This document shows positions 25,375-39,906 of a stretch of DNA of 50,980 nt, in pieces. The DNA comes from Ruminiclostridium sp. (GTDB lineage: Bacteria > Bacillota > Clostridia > Oscillospirales > Ruminococcaceae): the NCBI GenBank assembly GCA_017624025.1, contig JAGANY010000004.1, positions 1-50,980 of the forward strand, in the 5' to 3' direction. Within the stretch, counting starts at the first letter, position 1, and every line of letters starts with the position of its first letter. The notes beneath the pieces are model-generated. The model had not been told where the DNA came from. It searched no databases and was given only the letters and a program-made list of their open reading frames with translations. Both the position numbers and the translations under genes were made by a program.

Positions 25375-26163
25375 ATGCGTATAGTATCATTATGCAGTTC
25401 CAGTAAAGCAAATTCTACATATATCGAACACAACGGCGAAGGAATACTGGTTGACGTCGGATGCAGCTATAAGGCTCTACGTGACGGTTTAAGCCTTATC
25501 GACAGAAGTATAGAGAATGTTAAGGCTGTATTTATAACCCACGAACACAGCGACCATATTTCCGGTCTTTTACAGCTTACTAAAAATACAAAAATTCCCG
25601 TATTCGCTTCCGAAGGAACCTTACATAGAATTATATCTGAAAAAAAGGTTTTTACCGATGAAAATCTATATACAACAGAAGTAATCGGAAACGCTCCGAT
25701 AAATCTTATCCCTTATGCATTCCATACGCCTCACGACAGTGCGGAAAGTATGGGCTATACCTTTACGGCAGGGAGTACCAAAATCGCTGTATGCACAGAT
25801 ATAGGGCATATTACGCCGGAGGTGCGTGAAAACCTTACAGGGTGTAGATTTGTTCTTCTTGAATCGAATTATGACCCGTCCCTTCTCGTAAGAAACATAA
25901 AATATCCGTCTGTATTAAAGGAGCGTATCCGTTCCGACAGGGGTCATTTATCAAATCCCGATTGCGGAGTTTTTGCCCGTGAGCTTATAAAATCGGGTAC
26001 AACGTCTATTCTTCTGGGGCATTTAAGCCAGGAGAACAATACGCCGAAGCTTGCTTACGATAATATGGTTACCTCGCTTATGAATGTCGGGGCTTCGGTA
26101 AACAGGGATTATCTTCTCGATATTGCTCCTGTTATGGGAACAGGAAAGACGGTGATTGTATGA
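25375..26163 (+). CDS. MBL-fold metallo-hydrolase, WalJ/YycJ-like
   Basis: The 262-residue protein has the metallo-beta-lactamase signature THEHSDHISG (HxHxDH) and later metal ligands in CTDIGH and GHLSQ. The N-terminal start LCSSSKANSTYIEHNG is typical of the WalJ/YycJ group, reported to affect coordination of wall synthesis, division and DNA repair. The usual walRK neighbours are not here. The next gene overlaps its end by four bases. Confidence 0.87.
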   Translation: MRIVSLCSSSKANSTYIEHNGEGILVDVGCSYKALRDGLSLIDRSIENVKAVFITHEHSDHISGLLQLTKNTKIPVFASEGTLHRIISEKKVFTDENLYTTEVIGNAPINLIPYAFHTPHDSAESMGYTFTAGSTKIAVCTDIGHITPEVRENLTGCRFVLLESNYDPSLLVRNIKYPSVLKERIRSDRGHLSNPDCGVFARELIKSGTTSILLGHLSQENNTPKLAYDNMVTSLMNVGASVNRDYLLDIAPVMGTGKTVIV

Positions 26164-27080
26164 ATCCCTTTAAGTTTTCTGATGATAATAAGCGTTACCA
26201 TACCTTAAGCTATCACAACAAGCATACCTACGGACGAAAGGTCTATAAGGCGGTTATTGACGCCGGCTTTACTTGTCCGAATATTGACGGAAGCAAGGGC
26301 AAGGGAGGCTGTATTTTCTGTGACGGAGGGAGCGGTTATTTTACAACCGCCTGTGTTTCTGTCGCCGAACAGCTGAAGCTTGAATACGAGCGGATAAGAA
26401 AAAAGGTGCCCGACGCTTCGGTTATAGCTTATTTCCAGGCTCATACCAACACCTATGCACCAATATATGTTTTGCGTAAGCTTTACAACGAAGCTGTAGA
26501 TTTTGGTGTTGACGGAATTTCGGTAGCTACAAGGGGCGACTGCATAAATTCCGAGGTTGTGGCTTTGCTTAAGGAAATAAAAGTACCTGTGACAGTGGAG
26601 CTTGGGCTACAGAGCATTCACCATAAGACCGCTGAGCTTATCAACAGAGGGCATACCTATGATGAATTTATAAATGGTTACAGGCTCCTTAAAGAAAGCG
26701 GAATACGGGTTTGTGTGCATATAATAAACGGGCTTCCTTATGAAACGGAAGATATGATGTTAAAAACAGCCGAAGTCCTCGGAAAGCTTAAGCCCGACGG
26801 CGTAAAGCTTCATCTTCTTCACGTTATCGAGGGTACAAGGCTTGCAAAAATGTATGAGCAAGGAGAGTATAAGCCTCTCACAAAAGATGAATATGTTGAT
26901 ATTACAGTGAAACAGCTTGAACTGTTACCGCCCGAAACGGTTATCGAACGTATTACAGGAGATGGAGATAAATCGAAGCTTATAGCCCCCTTATGGAGTA
27001 TGGACAAGATTTCTGTACTTGGTGCTATTGATGTTACACAGAGGGAAAGAGACAGCTTTCAAGGAAAGAAATACCTATAA
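26160..27080 (+). CDS. TIGR01212 family radical SAM protein (YhcC-like)
   Basis: The 306-residue protein is of the TIGR01212 (YhcC) radical SAM family. The cluster-binding cysteines lie in TCPNIDGSKGKGGCIFCDGG, the family's characteristic widely spaced motif. Other family landmarks are the HKTAELINRGH and HIINGLPYE blocks and the HLLHVIEGT segment. The reaction is not firmly known. It overlaps the MBL-fold gene and is followed 18 bases later by another radical SAM gene, suggesting a joint transcript. Confidence 0.9.
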   Translation: MNPFKFSDDNKRYHTLSYHNKHTYGRKVYKAVIDAGFTCPNIDGSKGKGGCIFCDGGSGYFTTACVSVAEQLKLEYERIRKKVPDASVIAYFQAHTNTYAPIYVLRKLYNEAVDFGVDGISVATRGDCINSEVVALLKEIKVPVTVELGLQSIHHKTAELINRGHTYDEFINGYRLLKESGIRVCVHIINGLPYETEDMMLKTAEVLGKLKPDGVKLHLLHVIEGTRLAKMYEQGEYKPLTKDEYVDITVKQLELLPPETVIERITGDGDKSKLIAPLWSMDKISVLGAIDVTQRERDSFQGKKYL

Positions 27081-27098
27081 CGGAAAGGAAATATGATT

Positions 27099-28535
27099 AT
27101 GGACATTAAGAAGATAAGGTTTGTTGAACCCGGAAACCGACCCTACAGAAAGTCATTAAAAAACAGTTTCGTATATGACAGGTACATAAGAACGCCGGCT
27201 TTAGGATTGATAACTCTTGCTACTGTGGCGAAAAGATCCGTATCTGATACATATATGTACAGCGAAGCGATTTCAAAGATAGTATGGGATGATGTTCTTG
27301 ACGCTGATGTTATATTTATCGGCATCTTTACCTTTAACGCAAACAGAGGCTATGAGCTTGCCGAATACATAAGAAAGAATTCCTCGGCGGTAATTGTAAT
27401 AGGCGGTCTTCACGCTTCTCTAAATTACGAGGAAGCAGTAAAATATGCGGATTATGTAATTTTAGGCGAGGGTGACGAGAGTGTTCCGAAGCTTATCGAT
27501 GAGCTTAAAAATGACAGAGTTCCCGATTTTGAAGGTCTTGCATATATCAGAGACGGAGAAATAATAAAGACAGGAGAACCGATCGTTCCACATAATATTG
27601 ATATTATTCCGGACAGGAATTTATGTTATAACTACGATAAGATGGTGGGACACAGCACAATCTGGCCACAGGTTCATGCGTCGAGAGGCTGTCCACATAA
27701 CTGTGCTTACTGTGCTCTTGTTAAGCATTACGGCAGAAAGGTTCGTACACGTTCTCCCGAAAACGTTGTTGAGGATATAAAAGAGACTATTGCTTTTCAT
27801 AGAAAGAAAAAGCGTCTTGCTGAAATTTTATGGATAACCGATGATAATTTCTTTGCAGACAGGAAATGGGCAGTAAGCGTTCTGAATGCAATAATCGAAA
27901 GCGGAATAAAATATAAATTCACTATCCAGGTAAGATATGAGGTCGGCTTTGATGATGAGATGCTTGAGCTTCTTAAAAGGGCAGGCTTTGACGAATTGTC
28001 AATGGGTATTGAATTTCTCGAAGATGAAGCCTTTGAGCAGTATGAAAAGAAGAGTACCTACAGCGAAATTCTCCGTTCAGTAAAGAATATCCAGGCTCAC
28101 GGAATGAGAGTAAGGGGATTATTTATTGTGGGTGCCGATAATCATACAAAGGGTGTAGGTAAGAGGCTTGCTGATTTTGTTATCGAGCATAATATATGCG
28201 GGGTTCTTATCCAGTCGATGTATTTTATCCCCGGCACACCGGTTTACGATACTCATAAGGACAAGCTTATCGATAATGACTGGTCGAGATGCATCGGAAA
28301 AGTAGTTCATTATCCCGAAAAAATCTCTCCCTATGATTTACAGAAAGAAATTATCTACGCAAGCAGTCATATCTATTCCTTTAAGCGTCTTCTTTCCGCA
28401 TTGTTCAAAAAGAGAGGGCTCGAAAGAATACTTTTTATCGGCGAGTTTTTCTGGCAGATGAGCGTGCGTTCTGACTTGAAAAAGGAACTGCCCTGGCTTA
28501 AGGAAATTTCCGAAAAGAGCGGATTATATAAATAA
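27099..28535 (+). CDS. B12-binding-domain radical SAM protein
   Basis: The protein (478 residues from ATG 27099) has an N-terminal Rossmann-like part typical of cobalamin-binding radical SAM enzymes (FIGIFTFNANRGYEL, VIVIGGLHASLN, VILGEGDES), then the cluster motif ASRGCPHNCAYC, and an AdoMet radical barrel. Members methylate or rearrange unactivated carbons, or act as tRNA or lipid modifiers. I cannot name a substrate. AAAGGA is nine bases before ATG 27099 and only three before ATG 27093, so the former is preferred. The histidine that would ligate cobalamin (DxHxxG) is not obvious, so cofactor binding is uncertain. Confidence 0.82.
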   Translation: MDIKKIRFVEPGNRPYRKSLKNSFVYDRYIRTPALGLITLATVAKRSVSDTYMYSEAISKIVWDDVLDADVIFIGIFTFNANRGYELAEYIRKNSSAVIVIGGLHASLNYEEAVKYADYVILGEGDESVPKLIDELKNDRVPDFEGLAYIRDGEIIKTGEPIVPHNIDIIPDRNLCYNYDKMVGHSTIWPQVHASRGCPHNCAYCALVKHYGRKVRTRSPENVVEDIKETIAFHRKKKRLAEILWITDDNFFADRKWAVSVLNAIIESGIKYKFTIQVRYEVGFDDEMLELLKRAGFDELSMGIEFLEDEAFEQYEKKSTYSEILRSVKNIQAHGMRVRGLFIVGADNHTKGVGKRLADFVIEHNICGVLIQSMYFIPGTPVYDTHKDKLIDNDWSRCIGKVVHYPEKISPYDLQKEIIYASSHIYSFKRLLSALFKKRGLERILFIGEFFWQMSVRSDLKKELPWLKEISEKSGLYK

Positions 28536-28571: not shown

Positions 28572-29876
28572 CTATTGTTTTGTTACAAGCTCTTTAAAAT
28601 GTTCTCCTCGTTCTTCAAAGTTCTTATAGAAGCCGTAGCTTGCTGCAGCGGGAGATAAAAGACAGCGTACTTTTGTAACGGTTTTTGCATATCTTACTGC
28701 ATCGATAAGATTTTCAGCCTTATAAATATTACGCTTTTTGCCGTCAAGCTCAGAGTATATGCGGTAACCGCTGTCGGGAAGCAGTATGATGTTTTCAATA
28801 TCAGAGGAGTTGATAAAGCTTATAAGCTCGGTGTAGTCGATACCTCTGTCCATGCCGCCGATAATGATGGTATCTACCTTATCGAATGATTTCACAGCGG
28901 CAATAGCTGTGCTGGGGCATGTGCTTATGCTGTCGTTGATATACTGAACACCGCCGAAGGTTCCGATGTTTTCGAGACGGTGCGGGAGACCGTTGAAGGT
29001 AGATACTGCTTCAAGAGCCTTGTCCTTATCACAGCCGAGAGCGAGAGCAACGCACATAGCAATACCGATGTTATAGAAATTATGATGACCGATAAGTTTA
29101 GTGCTGATACCAGAAATCGGAATTTTAATTCCGTTGATGCTGAGCGTGTCGTTTGTCACATATATATCTGCTTCTCCGTTATCGAGACTTGCAGTAAGGA
29201 CGTCAAAGCCGAATTCTTCGTGTACACAGTCTGAGCCAATGATAAGAGTACCCTTTTCGTCCATAAAATGGTAGATGTTTTCCTTAGCGTTCTTATATGC
29301 GTTAAAGTCAACATAGTGGTCGAGATGCTCTTCAAAGATGTTGAGAAGAACAGCAATATCTGGTGACGCCTGTACATATTCGAGCTGGTGACAGGACATT
29401 TCACACACGATAATCGTATCCTCAGTAAACTCGTCTATACGTTCGAGGGGAGGGATACCGATATTCCCGATAAGTATTGCGTTTTTACCGCATTCCTTTA
29501 AAATGTGGCAGGTAAGGGAGGATGTGGTTGACTTTCCCTTTGTACCTGTGATTCCGATAATCGTATTTTCACGGAATCGGAGCAAAAGGTCAGTCTGGCT
29601 TGTGATTTTTGCCTTTATTTCATCCGAAACCATATTGAGAAGTGCGATACCGGGAGATTTCATAATAATATCGAAGCTTCCGAGACAATTGAGATAATTC
29701 TCTCCGAGATAAAGCTCGTATTCCGAAAGCTCGTCTGTGGCAATGAGATTGCGGTCGGCAATACCTATTGTACAGTCTATGTTTTTAAGTATATCGAGGG
29801 TAGAGCGTCCTTCACGGCCGAGACCTAAAATAAGAACTCTTTTCCCTTTAAAAAATTCTTCAAGTTTATTTCGCAT
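28572..29876 (-). CDS. murD: UDP-N-acetylmuramoyl-L-alanine--glutamate ligase MurD
   Basis: MurD ligates glutamate to UDP-MurNAc-L-alanine. Classical MurD uses D-glutamate; the MurD2 type described in Xanthomonas uses L-glutamate. The 434-residue protein has the N-terminal Rossmann part GLGREGRST, the ATP loop GITGTKGKSTT, the catalytic YINDSISTCPSTA and the C-terminal SPAAASYGFY-type motif. The start lies four bases after the MurL-like gene, with AAAGGA at the end of that gene, so the two are translationally linked. Which glutamate isomer it accepts cannot be read from sequence. It closes a long operon. Confidence 0.95.
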   Translation of the reverse strand: MRNKLEEFFKGKRVLILGLGREGRSTLDILKNIDCTIGIADRNLIATDELSEYELYLGENYLNCLGSFDIIMKSPGIALLNMVSDEIKAKITSQTDLLLRFRENTIIGITGTKGKSTTSSLTCHILKECGKNAILIGNIGIPPLERIDEFTEDTIIVCEMSCHQLEYVQASPDIAVLLNIFEEHLDHYVDFNAYKNAKENIYHFMDEKGTLIIGSDCVHEEFGFDVLTASLDNGEADIYVTNDTLSINGIKIPISGISTKLIGHHNFYNIGIAMCVALALGCDKDKALEAVSTFNGLPHRLENIGTFGGVQYINDSISTCPSTAIAAVKSFDKVDTIIIGGMDRGIDYTELISFINSSDIENIILLPDSGYRIYSELDGKKRNIYKAENLIDAVRYAKTVTKVRCLLSPAAASYGFYKNFEERGEHFKELVTKQ

Positions 29877-29880
29877 ATTT

Positions 29881-31203
29881 TTATCCTTTCAGAAGCAGTA
29901 AAAGCTCCTTAGGTACAAAATTATCGTTATCGAAAAAGTTATCGAGTACGGGGATGTCGAAACCGCCGATTTCCTTGTAGCCGTAGTATGCCTTAAGAAG
30001 AGCGGGGGGGTTATTCTTGCGGAGCTTAAGGGACATTTCCAGCGAAAGCCTTACTTCATCCTTTGTTCCGACGCATTCAAAGGGCTTATCCTCGCCGTCA
30101 AGCACAAGTCCGTCGAACATAGGCAGGAATTCGGGATTATCCAGCATATTACAGCCGAAGATTTCAGTAAGAATATCGTCTGTAAGAAATGCGGAAAGAA
30201 GAATATAGACATAAAGACATTTCGCACATTTACCGCACCATATATCGGTTTTGCTTCCGAGGTTACAGCTTTGGAAAACGGGGAAGTATTTCGGATATTT
30301 TACAAATTCACGGGCAATCTGCCACTCGCTCCAGGGGCGGAGAAGGCTGAAATATTCGGGTTCGGGGAGAAAATACTTTTCTGTATATTCTCTGAAATCA
30401 CGTTCAAATTCCGTACTCTTGCTGTACTGGTGATTTACCTCCATACCGCTTACATAAGTTTCATTGGCACTGCTTTCGTTGGAAAGAGCAATATATTTTT
30501 TTCCGGCAAGCACAGCACAAAGATAAGAAGAAAAGGCAACAATTGCCGAAAAAGGAGTATGACCGTTGAGCCAGCCGTCATTGTTGCGTTCGATAAGAGC
30601 CTTATCGATAGAACGGCTGAAGCCGATTATCTTATCATCCTCATAGCCTGCAGTATGAGCACAGTTAAGAGTTGCACCGCGTGGATTAATAAGGTAGCAG
30701 ACATTGTCCTCCTTCATTCCCGAAAGAAGCTCGAGAGTAACGACGCTATCCTTTCCACCGCCTACGGGAATAACTGCTCCTTTTCGTTCCGTTCCTGTTT
30801 CGGAAAAACGGGGAGGTTCGGTATTATCGGGGATAATAGTCATAAAGCTTTCAAAATCCGTAGTTATTGCGTTGCGGTAGAAAAACTCGCCTAATCCGTT
30901 AAAATAAAGCTTTTTCCACCAGTTTATCTGGAACTCATCGAGAGCACCGCATTTTACAAGAACCGTAGGCGGACAAGCACATTTCCAGTAGCTTATAAGC
31001 TCTGTCATTCCGAGAGAAAACGCAATAGTATCAATAAGCTTTCTGTCTGTCTTTTCGGTAAAATAGTTTTTGTTCCATTTCCATTTCGGATAGAAATTAT
31101 ATTCCCCGATTGAAAAATGACAGGAAAATCCTTCTTCGTTTATCTCATAGCTATGGTAGATAAAAACGGGATATTCTTTACGGAGTTGGGAAAATTTATC
31201 CAA
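29881..31203 (-). CDS. murL: MurL-like UDP-MurNAc-L-alanyl-L-glutamate epimerase
   Basis: I recognise this 440-residue protein as resembling MurL, the ATP-dependent enzyme that inverts L-glutamate to D-glutamate after it is attached to UDP-MurNAc-L-alanine. Motifs: a PP-loop-like PVGGGKDS at 147-153, SNESSANE at 241-248, NHQYSKS at 257-263, FSLLRPWSEWQIA near 285-297, and the cysteine knuckle WCGKCAKC at 322-329. The gene ends four bases before murD, the enzyme that would supply its substrate. No glutamate racemase gene is in the window. Alternative: another PP-loop ATPase of unknown use. Identification is from memory of the family and should be searched. Confidence 0.7.
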   Translation of the reverse strand: MDKFSQLRKEYPVFIYHSYEINEEGFSCHFSIGEYNFYPKWKWNKNYFTEKTDRKLIDTIAFSLGMTELISYWKCACPPTVLVKCGALDEFQINWWKKLYFNGLGEFFYRNAITTDFESFMTIIPDNTEPPRFSETGTERKGAVIPVGGGKDSVVTLELLSGMKEDNVCYLINPRGATLNCAHTAGYEDDKIIGFSRSIDKALIERNNDGWLNGHTPFSAIVAFSSYLCAVLAGKKYIALSNESSANETYVSGMEVNHQYSKSTEFERDFREYTEKYFLPEPEYFSLLRPWSEWQIAREFVKYPKYFPVFQSCNLGSKTDIWCGKCAKCLYVYILLSAFLTDDILTEIFGCNMLDNPEFLPMFDGLVLDGEDKPFECVGTKDEVRLSLEMSLKLRKNNPPALLKAYYGYKEIGGFDIPVLDNFFDNDNFVPKELLLLLKG

Positions 31204-31226: not shown

Positions 31227-31919
31227 TTAATAAAATCCGCCGTCAACGCCTAAAATCTGTCCTGTTGTAAAGCGGTTCTGTTCAAAAAATCTTGCTGAAT
31301 GGGCAACCTCAGCGGGCGTGCCTGTTCTGCCGAGAGGTGTTGAATCGGTAAGTTCGAGAAGCTCATCTTCGTTAAGATGACTGTTCATCTTGCTGTCGAT
31401 AACGCCGGGAGCAATACAATTCACACGGATATTTGACGGTCCGAGCTCCTTTGCGAGAGCCTTTGTAAGTCCTATTACACCTGCCTTTACAGCGGAGTAA
31501 TGAACCTCACAGGAAGCACCGTGAACCCCCCATACTGAAGAGATATTTATAATTGAGCCGTCCTTGTTATGAACCATAGCGGGGACAACGGCACGGGTAA
31601 GATAAAACACACCCGAAAGATTTACCCCTACCATTTTATTCCAGTCATCGTCGGTTATGTCAGTAAAAAGCTTTATCTGTGATATTCCTGCATTATTGAT
31701 AAGGAGACCACAGTCTTTTATATAAGGAGCAAGCTTTTCGGTTTCCTTCGGGTCGGATAAGTCGCACTGTACAGCAACGGCATTGTATTTTTCGGAAAGA
31801 ATGACAGCTTCATCCTTATTGCTTGCGTAAGTAAAAACAACGTTATAATCCTTTGAAAATTCAGCAACGAGTGCTTTTCCGATAGCACCCGTGCCTCCTG
31901 TTATAATAGCAGTTTTCAT
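31227..31919 (-). CDS. SDR family oxidoreductase, FabG-like
   Basis: This 230-residue short-chain dehydrogenase has the cofactor loop TGGTGAIGKA, NNAGIS, the catalytic set with INISSVWG, YSAVKAG (Tyr and Lys), and the C-terminal LGVDGGFY. It resembles 3-oxoacyl-ACP reductase FabG, but no fatty-acid synthesis genes are adjacent, so the substrate is open. Its ATG overlaps the stop of the Clp ATPase gene by four bases and it is followed 23 bases later by the MurL-like gene. Its place among wall genes suggests, but does not prove, a role in the envelope. Confidence 0.85.
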   Translation of the reverse strand: MKTAIITGGTGAIGKALVAEFSKDYNVVFTYASNKDEAVILSEKYNAVAVQCDLSDPKETEKLAPYIKDCGLLINNAGISQIKLFTDITDDDWNKMVGVNLSGVFYLTRAVVPAMVHNKDGSIINISSVWGVHGASCEVHYSAVKAGVIGLTKALAKELGPSNIRVNCIAPGVIDSKMNSHLNEDELLELTDSTPLGRTGTPAEVAHSARFFEQNRFTTGQILGVDGGFY

Positions 31920-34243
31920 TTTACTAAAAGCTCTCCTGCCTTATTGACCTTAATGCTTATTTTCTCCGGCGATATTTCTGCTCCGACAATAAGATTAGCG
32001 ACTTTATCCTCAATGTCCTTGCGGATGACCTTACGGATATCACGTCCGCCGTATTTTCCGCCGTGAGACTTTTCGGCAATCCACTTATAAGCCTCGTCGG
32101 AAACTGTAAGCTTTATGCCGTTTTCGGAAAGAGCCTCTATCATTTCCTTCATCATAAGCTTCGCAATATCAGCGTAATTCTCAACAGAAAGGGGAGAGAA
32201 GACGATTACCTCGTCAACACGTCCGAGAAATTCGGGACGGAGGAAAGCCTGGAGAGCCTTCATAGCCTTTTCCTTGGAGATATCGCCTGTGGTTTTGCCG
32301 AAGCCGAGACCGGAGCTGTCTGTAGAACCGGCGTTAGAGGTCATACAGATAATAGTGTTTTCAAAGTTTACGGCTCTTCCGTGAGAATCGTTAACCTTAC
32401 CTTCGTCAAGAATCTGTAAAAGGATATTCATAACGTCGGGATGAGCCTTTTCGATTTCATCAAAGAGAATCACAGAGTAAGGACGGCGGCGTACCTTTTC
32501 GGTAAGCTGTCCCGCATCATCAAAGCCTACATATCCGGGAGGCGAGCCTATGATTTTGGATACGCTGTGCTTCTCCATATATTCGGACATATCGAGTCTT
32601 ATAAGGGGTTCAACACCGCTGAAAAGTTCTTCGGAAAGTACCTTTACAAGCTGTGTTTTACCTACGCCTGTAGGTCCTACGAAAATAAACGAAGCAGGAC
32701 GGCGTTTAGTGGAAAGCTGAACCCTTGTACGCTTTACAGCGGCCGCAACGGTTTCACAGGCTTCGTCCTGGCCGATGATTTTTTCCTTGAGTACGGTTTC
32801 AAGCTTTGCTATCTTCTTGAATTCCGTTTCCATAATCTTCTTTGCGGGAATACCTGTCCACATTTCGATTACGGTAGATAAATCGGAAGCAGTAAGCTCT
32901 ACGTTTTCAACGAGAGGAGCAAGCTCCTTAAGCTTTGCGTCATTCTTAGCACGCTCTGTCTTAATTTCTGCAAGCTTTTCGTAGTCGATACTTTCTGTAT
33001 CGCTCATAAGCTCTGTTTCCTTTACTTCGAGAGCCTTGTTAGACTTTGTAAGACGCTCATATTCAGTAAGCTCAGCACTTCTTATGCTTGCACAGGCACA
33101 GGCTTCATCAAGCAGGTCAATTGCCTTGTCGGGTAAGAATCTGTCTGTAATATAGCGTTCGGAGAGGGTTACACAGGGACGGATAAGGGTTTCGGCAACC
33201 TTTATCTTATGGTGTTCTTCATAGTAATTTTTGATACCTCTTAAAAGCTCTGCAGTTTCGTCAACTGTAGGCTCGAGAACAGTAACGGGCTGGAAACGGC
33301 GTTCCAAAGCACTGTCCTTTTCGATGTGCTTGCGGTATTCGTTGAAGGTTGTAGCACCGATAACCTGTAATTCGCCTCTTGAAAGAGCGGGCTTGAACAT
33401 ATTAGCGGCATTCATAGTGCCTTCGCTGTCGCCTGTACCTACGAGGTTATGAACTTCATCGATAAAGAGGATAATGTTACCTGCTTCCTTTATCTCGTCA
33501 ATAAGGGATTTTACACGGCTTTCGAACTGTCCTCTGAACTGTGTGCCTGCAACGAGAGCAGTAAGGTCGAGGAGATAAAGCTCCTTGTCCTGTAATCTGA
33601 AGGGAACGTCGCCGGCAACGATTTTCTGAGCGATACCTTCAGCGATAGCAGTCTTACCTACACCGGGTTCACCGATAAGACAGGGGTTGTTTTTTGTACG
33701 TCTCGAAAGAATCTGGATAACACGCTCGATTTCCTTATCTCTTCCGATAATTCTGTCCATTTTTCCGTCTTTTGCTCTGCCGGTAAGGTTTGTACAGAAT
33801 GTTTCAAGGAACTTACGCTTTTTAGCTTCCTTACTCTTCTTTTTCTTTTCTTTCTTTTCGCTTTTTGTTTCATCAGCGTTGCTGTTTTCGGATGATTTTG
33901 AGCCGAAAAGCTTTTCCATAAACTGGGGTAAGGTATTTGCACCGCCTTTTTTGAAGCCGTCAACGCTGTCGTCGTCATCGTCTATAAGAAGGTCTTCCAT
34001 ATCGGGCATTTCGCCTTCTCCCATACCGAGACCTTCGGGCATCTGACCGCCGAAAAGCATATCAAAACCGTTTTCGAGGTCTTCGTCGGTTATTCCCATC
34101 TGTTTAAGATATTCGTTTACCTGTGGTACGCCTATTTCTTTTGCACAGGCGAGACAATAGCCTTTTTCGAATTTTTCAGTGCCGTTAAGTCCTGTCATAA
34201 ATACAACAGCAGGACGTTTACCGCACTTTGAACACATCATCAT
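31916..34243 (-). CDS. Clp family AAA+ ATPase with N-terminal zinc finger (ClpE-like)
   Basis: The 775-residue ATPase is a Clp unfoldase. It starts with a zinc-finger-like pair of CxxC motifs (C4, C7, C30, C33), as in ClpE. An acidic then lysine-rich linker follows (about 85-145, including KKEKKKKSK). AAA1 has Walker A GEPGVGKT from residue 191 and AAA2 has GPTGVGKT near residue 520. The middle domain is short, unlike ClpB. A hydrophobic loop for ClpP docking is not clearly seen. The expected partner is ClpP, for protein quality control. It lies within an envelope-related operon, an unusual site for a stress ATPase, and no CtsR operator was found before it. Confidence 0.88.
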
Positions 34244-38154: not shown

Positions 38155-39906
38155 TTATTTGTTCAGTAAAGTTAAAATTCTTTCCTTCGCACGTTCTATC
38201 GTATATACATCTTCGCCGAGGTCTATGCCGTTTTCAGCGAGAAGGTGCGAAAGCTTTGTAATCTGTGGGATATCGAGGCCTACCTGGCGTAATTCTCTTG
38301 CACGGCTGAATACCAGGTCGGTTTTCTCGAAGCAGAAAAGACGTCCGTGGTTCATAACGAGAACCTTATCGGCATATTTTACGATATCTTCCATCGAATG
38401 TGAAACGAGAAGAATTGTTGTGCCGGATTCTTCGTGATAGCTGTGTATTTCGTCAAGCACCTTGTCTCGGCCCTTGGGATCAAGCCCTGCCGCCGGTTCG
38501 TCAAGAATAAGGATTTCGGGCTCCATAGCTATAACGCCTGCTAAAGCAACTCTTCGCTTCTGGCCGCCCGAAAGCTCAAAGGGAGAAGCGTTAAGATGCT
38601 TTTCCGAAAGTCCCATACTCTTAGCGGCATTTCTTACACGCTTGTCGATTTCCTCGTCGGAAAGCCCCATATTTTTAGGACCGTATGAAATATCCTTATA
38701 AACGGTTTCCTCGAAAAGCTGGTACTCTGAGTACTGGAACACAAGTCCCGCGAGAAATCTTACGGCACGTATATCGGAATCCTTATCCCATATATTCTTT
38801 CCGTGTATGAGTATTTCTCCGCTTGTGGGCTTTAAGAGACCGTTAAGATGCTGGATAAGGGTAGATTTACCGCTTCCGGTATGACCGATAACGCCGATAA
38901 ACGAGCCTTTTTCTATTTTAAGGCTTACGTTGTCAACAGCTGTAGATTCGAAAGGGGTGCCGACGCTGTATTTATAGGTAAGGCTCTTTATTTCAGCGGC
39001 AATCTCTTTTTCAGCTTTTTCTTCTTCGACAGGCTCGGTATATTTTGCTTCGCCCTTTATGCCGAGTTTTAAAAGCTCATCAAGTGCTTCGTTTTCATCG
39101 AGGATTTCAAGAGATACGTCCGCACCGCTCTTTTTAAGCTCATACATAAGCTCTGTAACCTGTGGTACGTCGAGAGCATAGCTTTTTATTTTTTCAACCT
39201 GTGAGAAAATCTTTTTCGGAACATCGTCCATTACGATTTTTCCGTCATCCATAACGATAACACGCTGTGCCTGTGCCGCTTCGTCCATATAGTGGGTTAT
39301 AAGGATAATGGTTATGCCCTGTGAATTAAGAAGCTTTATGGTTTTCATAACTTCTTTTCTTCCCTTAGGGTCAAGCATAGCTGTAGGCTCGTCAAGTACG
39401 ATACATTCGGGACGCATAGCGAGTATTCCCGCAATAGCGACACGCTGTTTCTGACCGCCGGAAAGCTGATGCGGGGAATGCTCACGGTAGTCATACATAC
39501 TTACGGTCTTTAACGCTTCATCAACACGCTCACGGATTTCCGCCTGTGGTACGCCTAGATTTTCGAGGGCAAAAGCTACGTCTTCTTCAACAAGAGTAGC
39601 TACAAGCTGGTTATCGGGATTCTGGAAAACCATACCTACGTTCTGGCGTATATCGAAGATTCTGTCGTCGTCGGAGGCGTCTATACCGTTAACGAGAACA
39701 GTACCCTTTGTTGCAGTAAGGATGCCGTTGAAATGTTTCGCAAGAGTAGATTTTCCGCATCCGTTATGACCGAGCACGGCAACGAACTGACCTTTCGGCA
39801 CAGAGAGGTTTATTCCCTTTAAAACCTTGTTGGCTTCGATTTCGTTACCTTCGTCATCGTAGTTCTTATATTCAAATTCAAGCTCTTTAACTTCAATAAT
39901 GTTCAT
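38155..39906 (-). CDS. Fused energy-coupling factor ATPase EcfA1-EcfA2
   Basis: The 583-residue protein contains two complete ABC ATPase domains in one chain. The first has Walker [10 protein letters not shown] (about residue 45), signature LSGGQKQR and Walker [13 protein letters not shown]. The second begins after a glutamate-rich linker (about 285-300), with Walker [10 protein letters not shown], signature LSGGQKRR and [10 protein letters not shown]. In most Firmicutes EcfA1 and EcfA2 are separate proteins. It lies 21 bases after the methyltransferase gene and just before ecfT, giving the core ECF module minus the S subunit. It powers vitamin uptake. Confidence 0.93.

Follow-up and report, generated by a model that had tools for sequence, protein, structure and literature searches.

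The murL-murD locus studied here raises the question of where an uncultured gut bacterium obtains the D-glutamate of its peptidoglycan. The window is the whole stretch of DNA analyzed, 50,980 nt of contig JAGANY010000004.1 from a Ruminiclostridium sp. genome, and on its minus strand an open reading frame (ORF) related to murL is followed directly by murD. MurD2 and MurL are known from Xanthomonas oryzae, Micromonospora, and Salinispora (PMC8788868, PMC5808125). A MurD of the MurD2 type would ligate L-glutamate to UDP-MurNAc-L-Ala, and the attached L-glutamate would then be flipped to D-glutamate in the MurL step. We consider it very probable, from sequence comparisons, that the window genes encode this MurD2-MurL route to peptidoglycan D-glutamate, with both enzyme activities predicted, and the pair most likely replaces glutamate racemase (MurI) in the window's gut lineage. 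This reading rests on the identity of the genes, the specificity residues of MurD, the conserved linkage and fusion of the two genes, a genus without MurI over cut-off, and a common clade with the MurD2 of Xanthomonas sacchari. The pathway is known in kind; its placing in the window's lineage is unexpected and well supported.

A MurL relative next to murD

The features of the gene pair are as follows.

29881..31203, minus strand: murL-like ORF, 440 aa, TTG start; matches NF041275 at E=5.7e-71 (239 bits, cut-off 700)
29877..29880, minus strand: 4-nt spacer (AAAT in the sequence) separating the stop codon of murL and the ATG of murD
28572..29876, minus strand: murD, predicted MurD2 type (L-Glu-adding UDP-MurNAc-L-Ala ligase), 434 aa, ATG start; TIGR01087 at 311.5 bits, E183 and R344, clade with X. 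sacchari MurD2
30745..30768, minus strand: PVGGGKDS, residues 146-153 of MurL, PP-loop-like ATP motif; GGGKDS invariant in 50/50 aligned MurL proteins, stretch weakly matched to the PP-loop enzyme TtuA PH0300
30460..30483, minus strand: SNESSANE, residues 241-248, from a 50-row alignment and the X. sacchari comparison
30415..30435, minus strand: NHQYSKS, residues 257-263, from the same alignment and comparison
30217..30240, minus strand: WCGKCAKC, residues 322-329; C323, C326, and C329 invariant, C313 shortly N-terminal
30067..30087, minus strand: KPFECVG, residues 373-379, with invariant C377

The sole significant family of the 440-aa protein was the NCBIfam MurL model NF041275, which scored 239.3 bits with residues 66-390 aligned to profile positions 66-392 of 447. 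This model is the Xanthomonadales MurL equivalog, named for one order of Proteobacteria, and it also matched all 50 aligned relatives of the window protein. The annotated MurL of X. sacchari has 122 identities with the window MurL over 430 aligned positions (~28%), and GGGKDS, SNE.SA, NHQ.SK, SCN, WC..C.KC, and KPFECVG are common to both. Six cysteines are invariant in the 50 aligned relatives, and five of them (C313, C323, C326, C329, and C377) are also present in X. sacchari; C77 is not. The invariant cysteines may have a catalytic role. No Pfam model scored over its cut-off for the window MurL (DUF6395 was below it), and a phmmer search with the single window protein gave matches at E 0.8 or worse only.

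As judged from these comparisons, the 440-aa protein is a member of a wider MurL family. Its homology over the central region is significant and far beyond chance, it has conserved residues in common with annotated MurL, and it has a genomic partnership with MurD2. The preliminary description of this DNA had named a 440-residue MurL-like protein by four motifs (PVGGGKDS, SNESSANE, NHQYSKS, and WCGKCAKC) and had placed its end four bases before the murD start. All four motifs were found, as was the 4-nt spacing, and the profile search agreed on the family, although under the 700-bit cut-off.

A scan of named genomes gave at least 578 MurL relatives, and the loci of the best 80 were used below as the named loci. 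The closest named record among them is a metagenome-assembled genome (MAG) called Ruminiclostridium sp. and obtained from the rectum of a roe deer (L096), with a MurL that is 82% identical to that of the window.

MurD specificity residues, linkage, and fusion

The window MurD belongs to the Mur ligase family TIGR01087, with a score of 311.5 bits that exceeds the cut-off of 211.95. In X. oryzae MurD2, Glu197 and Arg358 (Asp182 and Lys348 in Escherichia coli) matter for the use of L-Glu; a double change to Asp/Lys gave a full switch to D-Glu, and single changes altered stereospecificity (PMC8788868). The window MurD has the same pair.

29328..29330, minus strand: codon of MurD Glu183, in the column of E. 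coli Asp182 and X. oryzae MurD2 Glu197 (PMC8788868)
28845..28847, minus strand: codon of MurD Arg344, in the column of E. coli Lys348 and X. oryzae MurD2 Arg358 (PMC8788868)

As a control of the column mapping, the X. sacchari MurD read Glu/Arg/Pro/Phe, as printed for the four X. oryzae positions. We then compared 60 relatives; 36 belong to the genus, with the window's genome among them, and 24 come from elsewhere in the order. MurL is present in 38 of the 60 and absent from 22. MurD had Glu in 37/37 readable MurL-positive genomes and Arg in 38/38, versus Asn/Lys in 22/22 MurL-negative genomes, so that the residue pair goes with the presence or absence of MurL in the 59 genomes where both positions could be read. 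The Glu/Arg rule was kept in four genus genomes that have murD apart from murL (G003, G006, G010, and G021). That Glu/Arg is simply the common state of MurDs in the order was considered and rejected, given Asn/Lys in every MurL-negative relative. MurL-neighboring MurDs of the named loci had Glu in 71/74 and Arg in 74/74, and Glu/Arg was found in 37/37 and 16/18 MurDs of two further sets of fetched loci.

A quick tree of 65 MurDs, picked from those at hand, agreed with the residues. Forty MurL-linked rows and the X. sacchari MurD2 formed one clade with a Shimodaira-Hasegawa approximate likelihood ratio test (SH-aLRT) support of 95, and the MurDs of the 22 MurL-free relatives of the order formed a second one (SH-aLRT 99). 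At most one MurD per genus genome scores over the family cut-off, and G016 has only a sub-cut-off fragment. Therefore, the window MurD is most likely the MurD of the wall and not a spare copy.

The two genes also travel together. murD is present in 75 of the 80 named loci, and over the 72 measurable loci a median of 53 nt separates the end of murL from the glycine motif of MurD. When neighboring ORFs were clustered, murL and murD (merged via fusions) spanned 78/80 loci, and the next cluster spanned 11/80. Pairwise distances of MurL and MurD correlated with r=0.90 over 71 loci, a value reached in 0/2000 permutations. Two sets of loci were fetched from other groups. Forty came from the order that holds a Draconibacterium-labeled MAG, which we take to be the Bacteroidales; 6 of them are fused, 31 have murD directly adjoining, and 3 are without it (one at a contig end). 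Among 20 loci from the family of Mordavella massiliensis, which is presumably the Lachnospiraceae (NCBI shows Clostridiaceae for Mordavella), 18 have murD.

In some genomes MurL and MurD form a single open frame. This is the case in two Clostridia, G015/L102 (900 aa) and G049/L150 (911 aa), and in six fusions of 885-949 aa (L217-L222) among the 126 full-length matches of the Draconibacterium-labeled order, which makes eight genomes in total. In the window, AAAGGA stands immediately 5' of the murL stop codon, and the spacing together with the fused forms in other genomes suggests that murL and murD are translationally coupled. An accident of gene order as the source of the 4-nt spacing was rejected, since linkage and fusion recur across distant genomes.

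Some records with the pair carry labels that fit poorly. L149 is a MAG labeled 'Mycoplasma sp.' with murL-murD, and L102 is labeled 'Roseburia sp.' and has a fused ORF that matches G015 of the window's genus. L204 (MT836755.1), deposited as an unverified 'Bacteriophage sp.' from human feces, has murL-murD beside an ORF that by eye is like elongation factor G, and the record may be a mislabeled bacterial contig.

Distribution of the pair and absence of glutamate racemase

Among 392 genomes sampled from the Draconibacterium-labeled order, 126 have full-length MurL (128 matches in all). In the Mordavella family, 298 genomes gave 22 matches, of which 21 were full-length and one, in G573, was a 41-bit fragment. 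However, a 398-genome sample of the phylum centered on the window had MurL only in the window and in G213 (26 bits, weak and partial, with internal stops). The near absence of MurL from this phylum sample makes the pair rare there and the distribution patchy. Strain-named carriers among the named loci are Ruminococcus flavefaciens XPD3002, Mordavella massiliensis An582, Lachnoclostridium sp. An118, Eubacterium sp. ER2, and Clostridiales bacterium 1_7_47_FAA.

We also searched for MurI and for D-amino-acid aminotransferase (DAT). No match to the Asp/Glu racemase family was found in the genome that contains the window, which is 1.6 Mb and 58% complete. All 36 genus genomes have MurL, and MurI over cut-off was found in 0/36; completeness is 90% or more in 25 of these genomes. 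Both MurL-positive genomes among the 24 others of the order (G045 and G049) also lacked MurI over cut-off. Across the 60 genomes, MurI over cut-off was present in 0/38 with MurL and 19/22 without it (Fisher p=7.5e-13, kinship not corrected). The same test in the Mordavella family covered 80 of the 298 genomes, namely the 21 with full-length MurL, 58 free of MurL, and G573; MurI over cut-off was found in 0/21 versus 54/58 (p=1.7e-15, kinship not corrected), and G573 did not have it either. Only 1 of 50 further MurL-positive genomes taken from the 80 loci had MurI over cut-off. The search in the Draconibacterium-labeled order covered 10 Bacteroidota-labeled records among these 50, and none had MurI over cut-off (G456, G466, G467, G470, G475, G482, G485, G492, G493, and G500); G485 and G492 gave weak hits. 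L134/G467 seems to be mislabeled, and L152/G482 presumably belongs to this order.

Full-length DAT was found in 0/36 genus genomes, which had C-terminal partial hits only, none of them in the window's genome. DAT over cut-off was found in 0/60 genomes of the order set and 0/80 of a further set, with a strict cut-off that only 1 of 14 control genomes passed. The searches covered MurI and DAT and did not extend to pyridoxal phosphate (PLP) racemases or DapF. The combination expected of an organism with MurD2/MurL, with neither glutamate racemase nor DAT, was thus found in the genus and not in all genomes outside it. The preliminary description had suggested that the organism makes its D-glutamate by this route and could lack or bypass glutamate racemase. 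This suggestion gained support in silico, from a MurD that carries the Glu/Arg pair of Xanthomonas MurD2 and from the searches of the genus, which found neither MurI over cut-off nor full-length DAT. The searches found no source of D-Glu in five genomes of the Mordavella family (G520, G534, G535, G539, and G573), which lacked full-length MurL and DAT as well as MurI over cut-off.

In print, the distribution given for MurD2-MurL is Gamma- and Alphaproteobacteria and rare actinobacteria (PMC8788868); an earlier review adds orthologs of low similarity from a fungus, cyanobacteria, and an amoeba (PMC5808125). In our searches of the open literature, no report of the pathway in Bacillota or Bacteroidota came up. 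The spread of the pair is therefore wider than found in print and takes in many gut Bacillota and Bacteroidota-labeled genomes. The preliminary description had called such a route of note in a Clostridium-like Firmicute; the placing is indeed unexpected, but this understated the case, given those other genomes. We think it likely that MurD2-MurL is a major overlooked source of wall D-Glu in gut anaerobes (about one-third of the sampled Bacteroidales-type order and scattered Clostridia), that it spread as a two-gene cassette and was fused to a bifunctional enzyme in several lineages, and that it may explain murI-less gut species such as Roseburia intestinalis.

If the enzymes work as predicted, MurI would not be a universal target in gut Bacillota and Bacteroidota-labeled groups. 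The narrow-spectrum argument for MurL/MurD2 inhibitors would also change, since such compounds would affect gut commensals as well, and it would be worth rechecking predictions that gut bacteria without murI depend on external D-Glu. The structure and mechanism of MurL are called unclear, and its adenylation mechanism is a hypothesis of the same paper (PMC8788868). The fused MurL-MurD proteins would be convenient material for structural and mechanistic work.

Compared with known systems, the window's pair is like Xanthomonas MurD2/MurL in its two products, the gene order murL-murD (X. sacchari plasmid NZ_CP010410), the Glu/Arg pair, the six common MurL motifs, and a genus without MurI over cut-off. 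It differs in the low identity to X. sacchari MurL, the sub-cut-off score, the phyla given by the record labels, fusion in some relatives, and two further MurD residues (Ala/Tyr for Pro/Phe at 414/416). With the canonical MurD and MurI system it has in common the family TIGR01087 and the position in the pathway. Unlike this pair, the MurDs of the 22 MurL-negative genomes read Asn/Lys and branch apart, and most of these genomes have MurI.

Competing explanations and the surrounding genes

The observations in this paragraph and the next weigh against a MurD2-MurL route. The 239.3 bits of the 440-aa protein are below the curated cut-off of NF041275, and the protein is not filed in that equivalog. 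MurL-like genes annotated as hypothetical occur on Pseudonocardia plasmids with no annotated murD alongside (L205 and L206), and membership in the MurL family alone is therefore not proof. The window MurD has Ala412 and Tyr414 where X. oryzae MurD2 has Pro and Phe (E. coli positions 414 and 416). However, the P433A and F435L mutants of MurD2 retained wild-type stereospecificity (PMC8788868), and we do not take these positions as defining MurD2 for that reason. Asp/Arg instead of Glu/Arg was found in 5 of 129 MurL-neighboring MurDs (L130, L149, L154, L264, and L265). Since single changes altered stereospecificity in X. oryzae MurD2 (PMC8788868), these MurDs may have a relaxed, possibly dual, glutamate stereospecificity. 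X. sacchari sits on a very long branch of the quick MurD tree.

The other adverse observations concern D-glutamate supply. Weak partial racemase-family hits were seen in three of the 36 genus genomes and in 9/21 MurL-positive genomes of the Mordavella family. Among the 50 further MurL-positive genomes, the MAG G489 has MurI over cut-off, G488 has a 108-bit near-full-length match, and 16 more have weak partial hits. A near-full-length DAT relative scoring 206-233 bits, under cut-off, is present in 7/70 MurL-positive genomes outside the genus set. These seven include four of the five strain-named carriers, all but R. flavefaciens, which has only a partial DAT hit; all five have Glu/Arg MurDs, and MurI over cut-off was found in 0/5. 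Aminotransferase supply of D-Glu is possible in the seven.

Such hits fit the alternative that MurD is an ordinary D-Glu-ligating enzyme, that D-Glu comes from an aminotransferase, a PLP racemase, an aspartate-racemase relative, or a bifunctional DapF, and that the MurL-like protein epimerizes or adenylates something else. A DapF with glutamate racemase activity has been reported for Chlamydia trachomatis (PMC5885031), and the murL-like genes without murD alongside point the same way. We nevertheless consider this explanation unlikely. Full-length DAT is absent from 36/36 genus genomes, the specificity residues track MurL even where the genes are unlinked, and MurL and MurD are fused in other genomes.

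A MurD2 that adds L-Glu could also leave it in the L form in the mature wall, with MurL acting elsewhere. We did not find the wall chemistry of the lineage, which leaves some room for this scenario. It is very unlikely, because the union of MurL and MurD in one open frame in eight genomes points to consecutive steps. Still less probable is D-Glu auxotrophy or an altered wall in this lineage, with scavenging behind the absence of murI. R. intestinalis appears to be without murI, and outside D-Glu or an altered wall has been suggested for it (PMC7478625). However, scavenging is not needed here, since 38/38 MurL-positive relatives without MurI over cut-off have the MurD2-MurL pair instead.

SGGxDS is the motif of PP-loop ATP pyrophosphatases such as TtuA, QueC, and NAD synthetase, and the GGGKDS of the window MurL resembles it. 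A profile built from the 50 MurL rows matched TtuA among solved structures (E=0.003), and individual members gave weak profile matches to TtuA (6/50, best E=0.0011); NAD synthase, WbuX, and QueC were each weakly matched by a single member. The similarity is confined to ~39 residues around the motif. That the ORF belongs to another PP-loop family, for example one of tRNA thiolation or queuosine biosynthesis, as these weak matches might suggest, is strongly disfavored and close to excluded, since the window protein matches MurL at E=5.7e-71 and 50/50 relatives match MurL too; the preliminary description had named a better match to such a family as grounds for dropping MurL, and none appeared. 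The TtuA-type matches do weakly suggest a PP-loop ATP site in MurL. Such a site would fit MurL, which is reported to need ATP and release AMP (PMC8788868).

Along the minus strand, a Clp-type ATPase gene (31916-34243) comes first and is followed by an SDR gene (31227-31919), then by the 440-aa murL-like ORF (29881-31203) and murD (28572-29876). Two neighbors flank the pair directly.

31227..31919, minus strand: SDR-family gene, upstream of murL on the same strand, 23 nt from its TTG
27093-28535, plus strand: gene convergent with murD, on the opposite strand

The SDR gene is possibly on the same transcript as murL. It is not a widely conserved partner of murL, and its cluster was found in 6/80 loci. 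The convergent gene encodes a B12-binding radical SAM protein with no NCBIfam match over a curated cut-off (the best was BchE-like, with 114 of 481 bits), and it is adjoined by an MnmL/YtqA-type gene (26160-27080). Farther away on the minus strand, a single 583-aa ORF (38155-39906) contains two ATPase domains of energy-coupling-factor transporters, and an adjacent ORF is CbiQ-like, with a score under cut-off.

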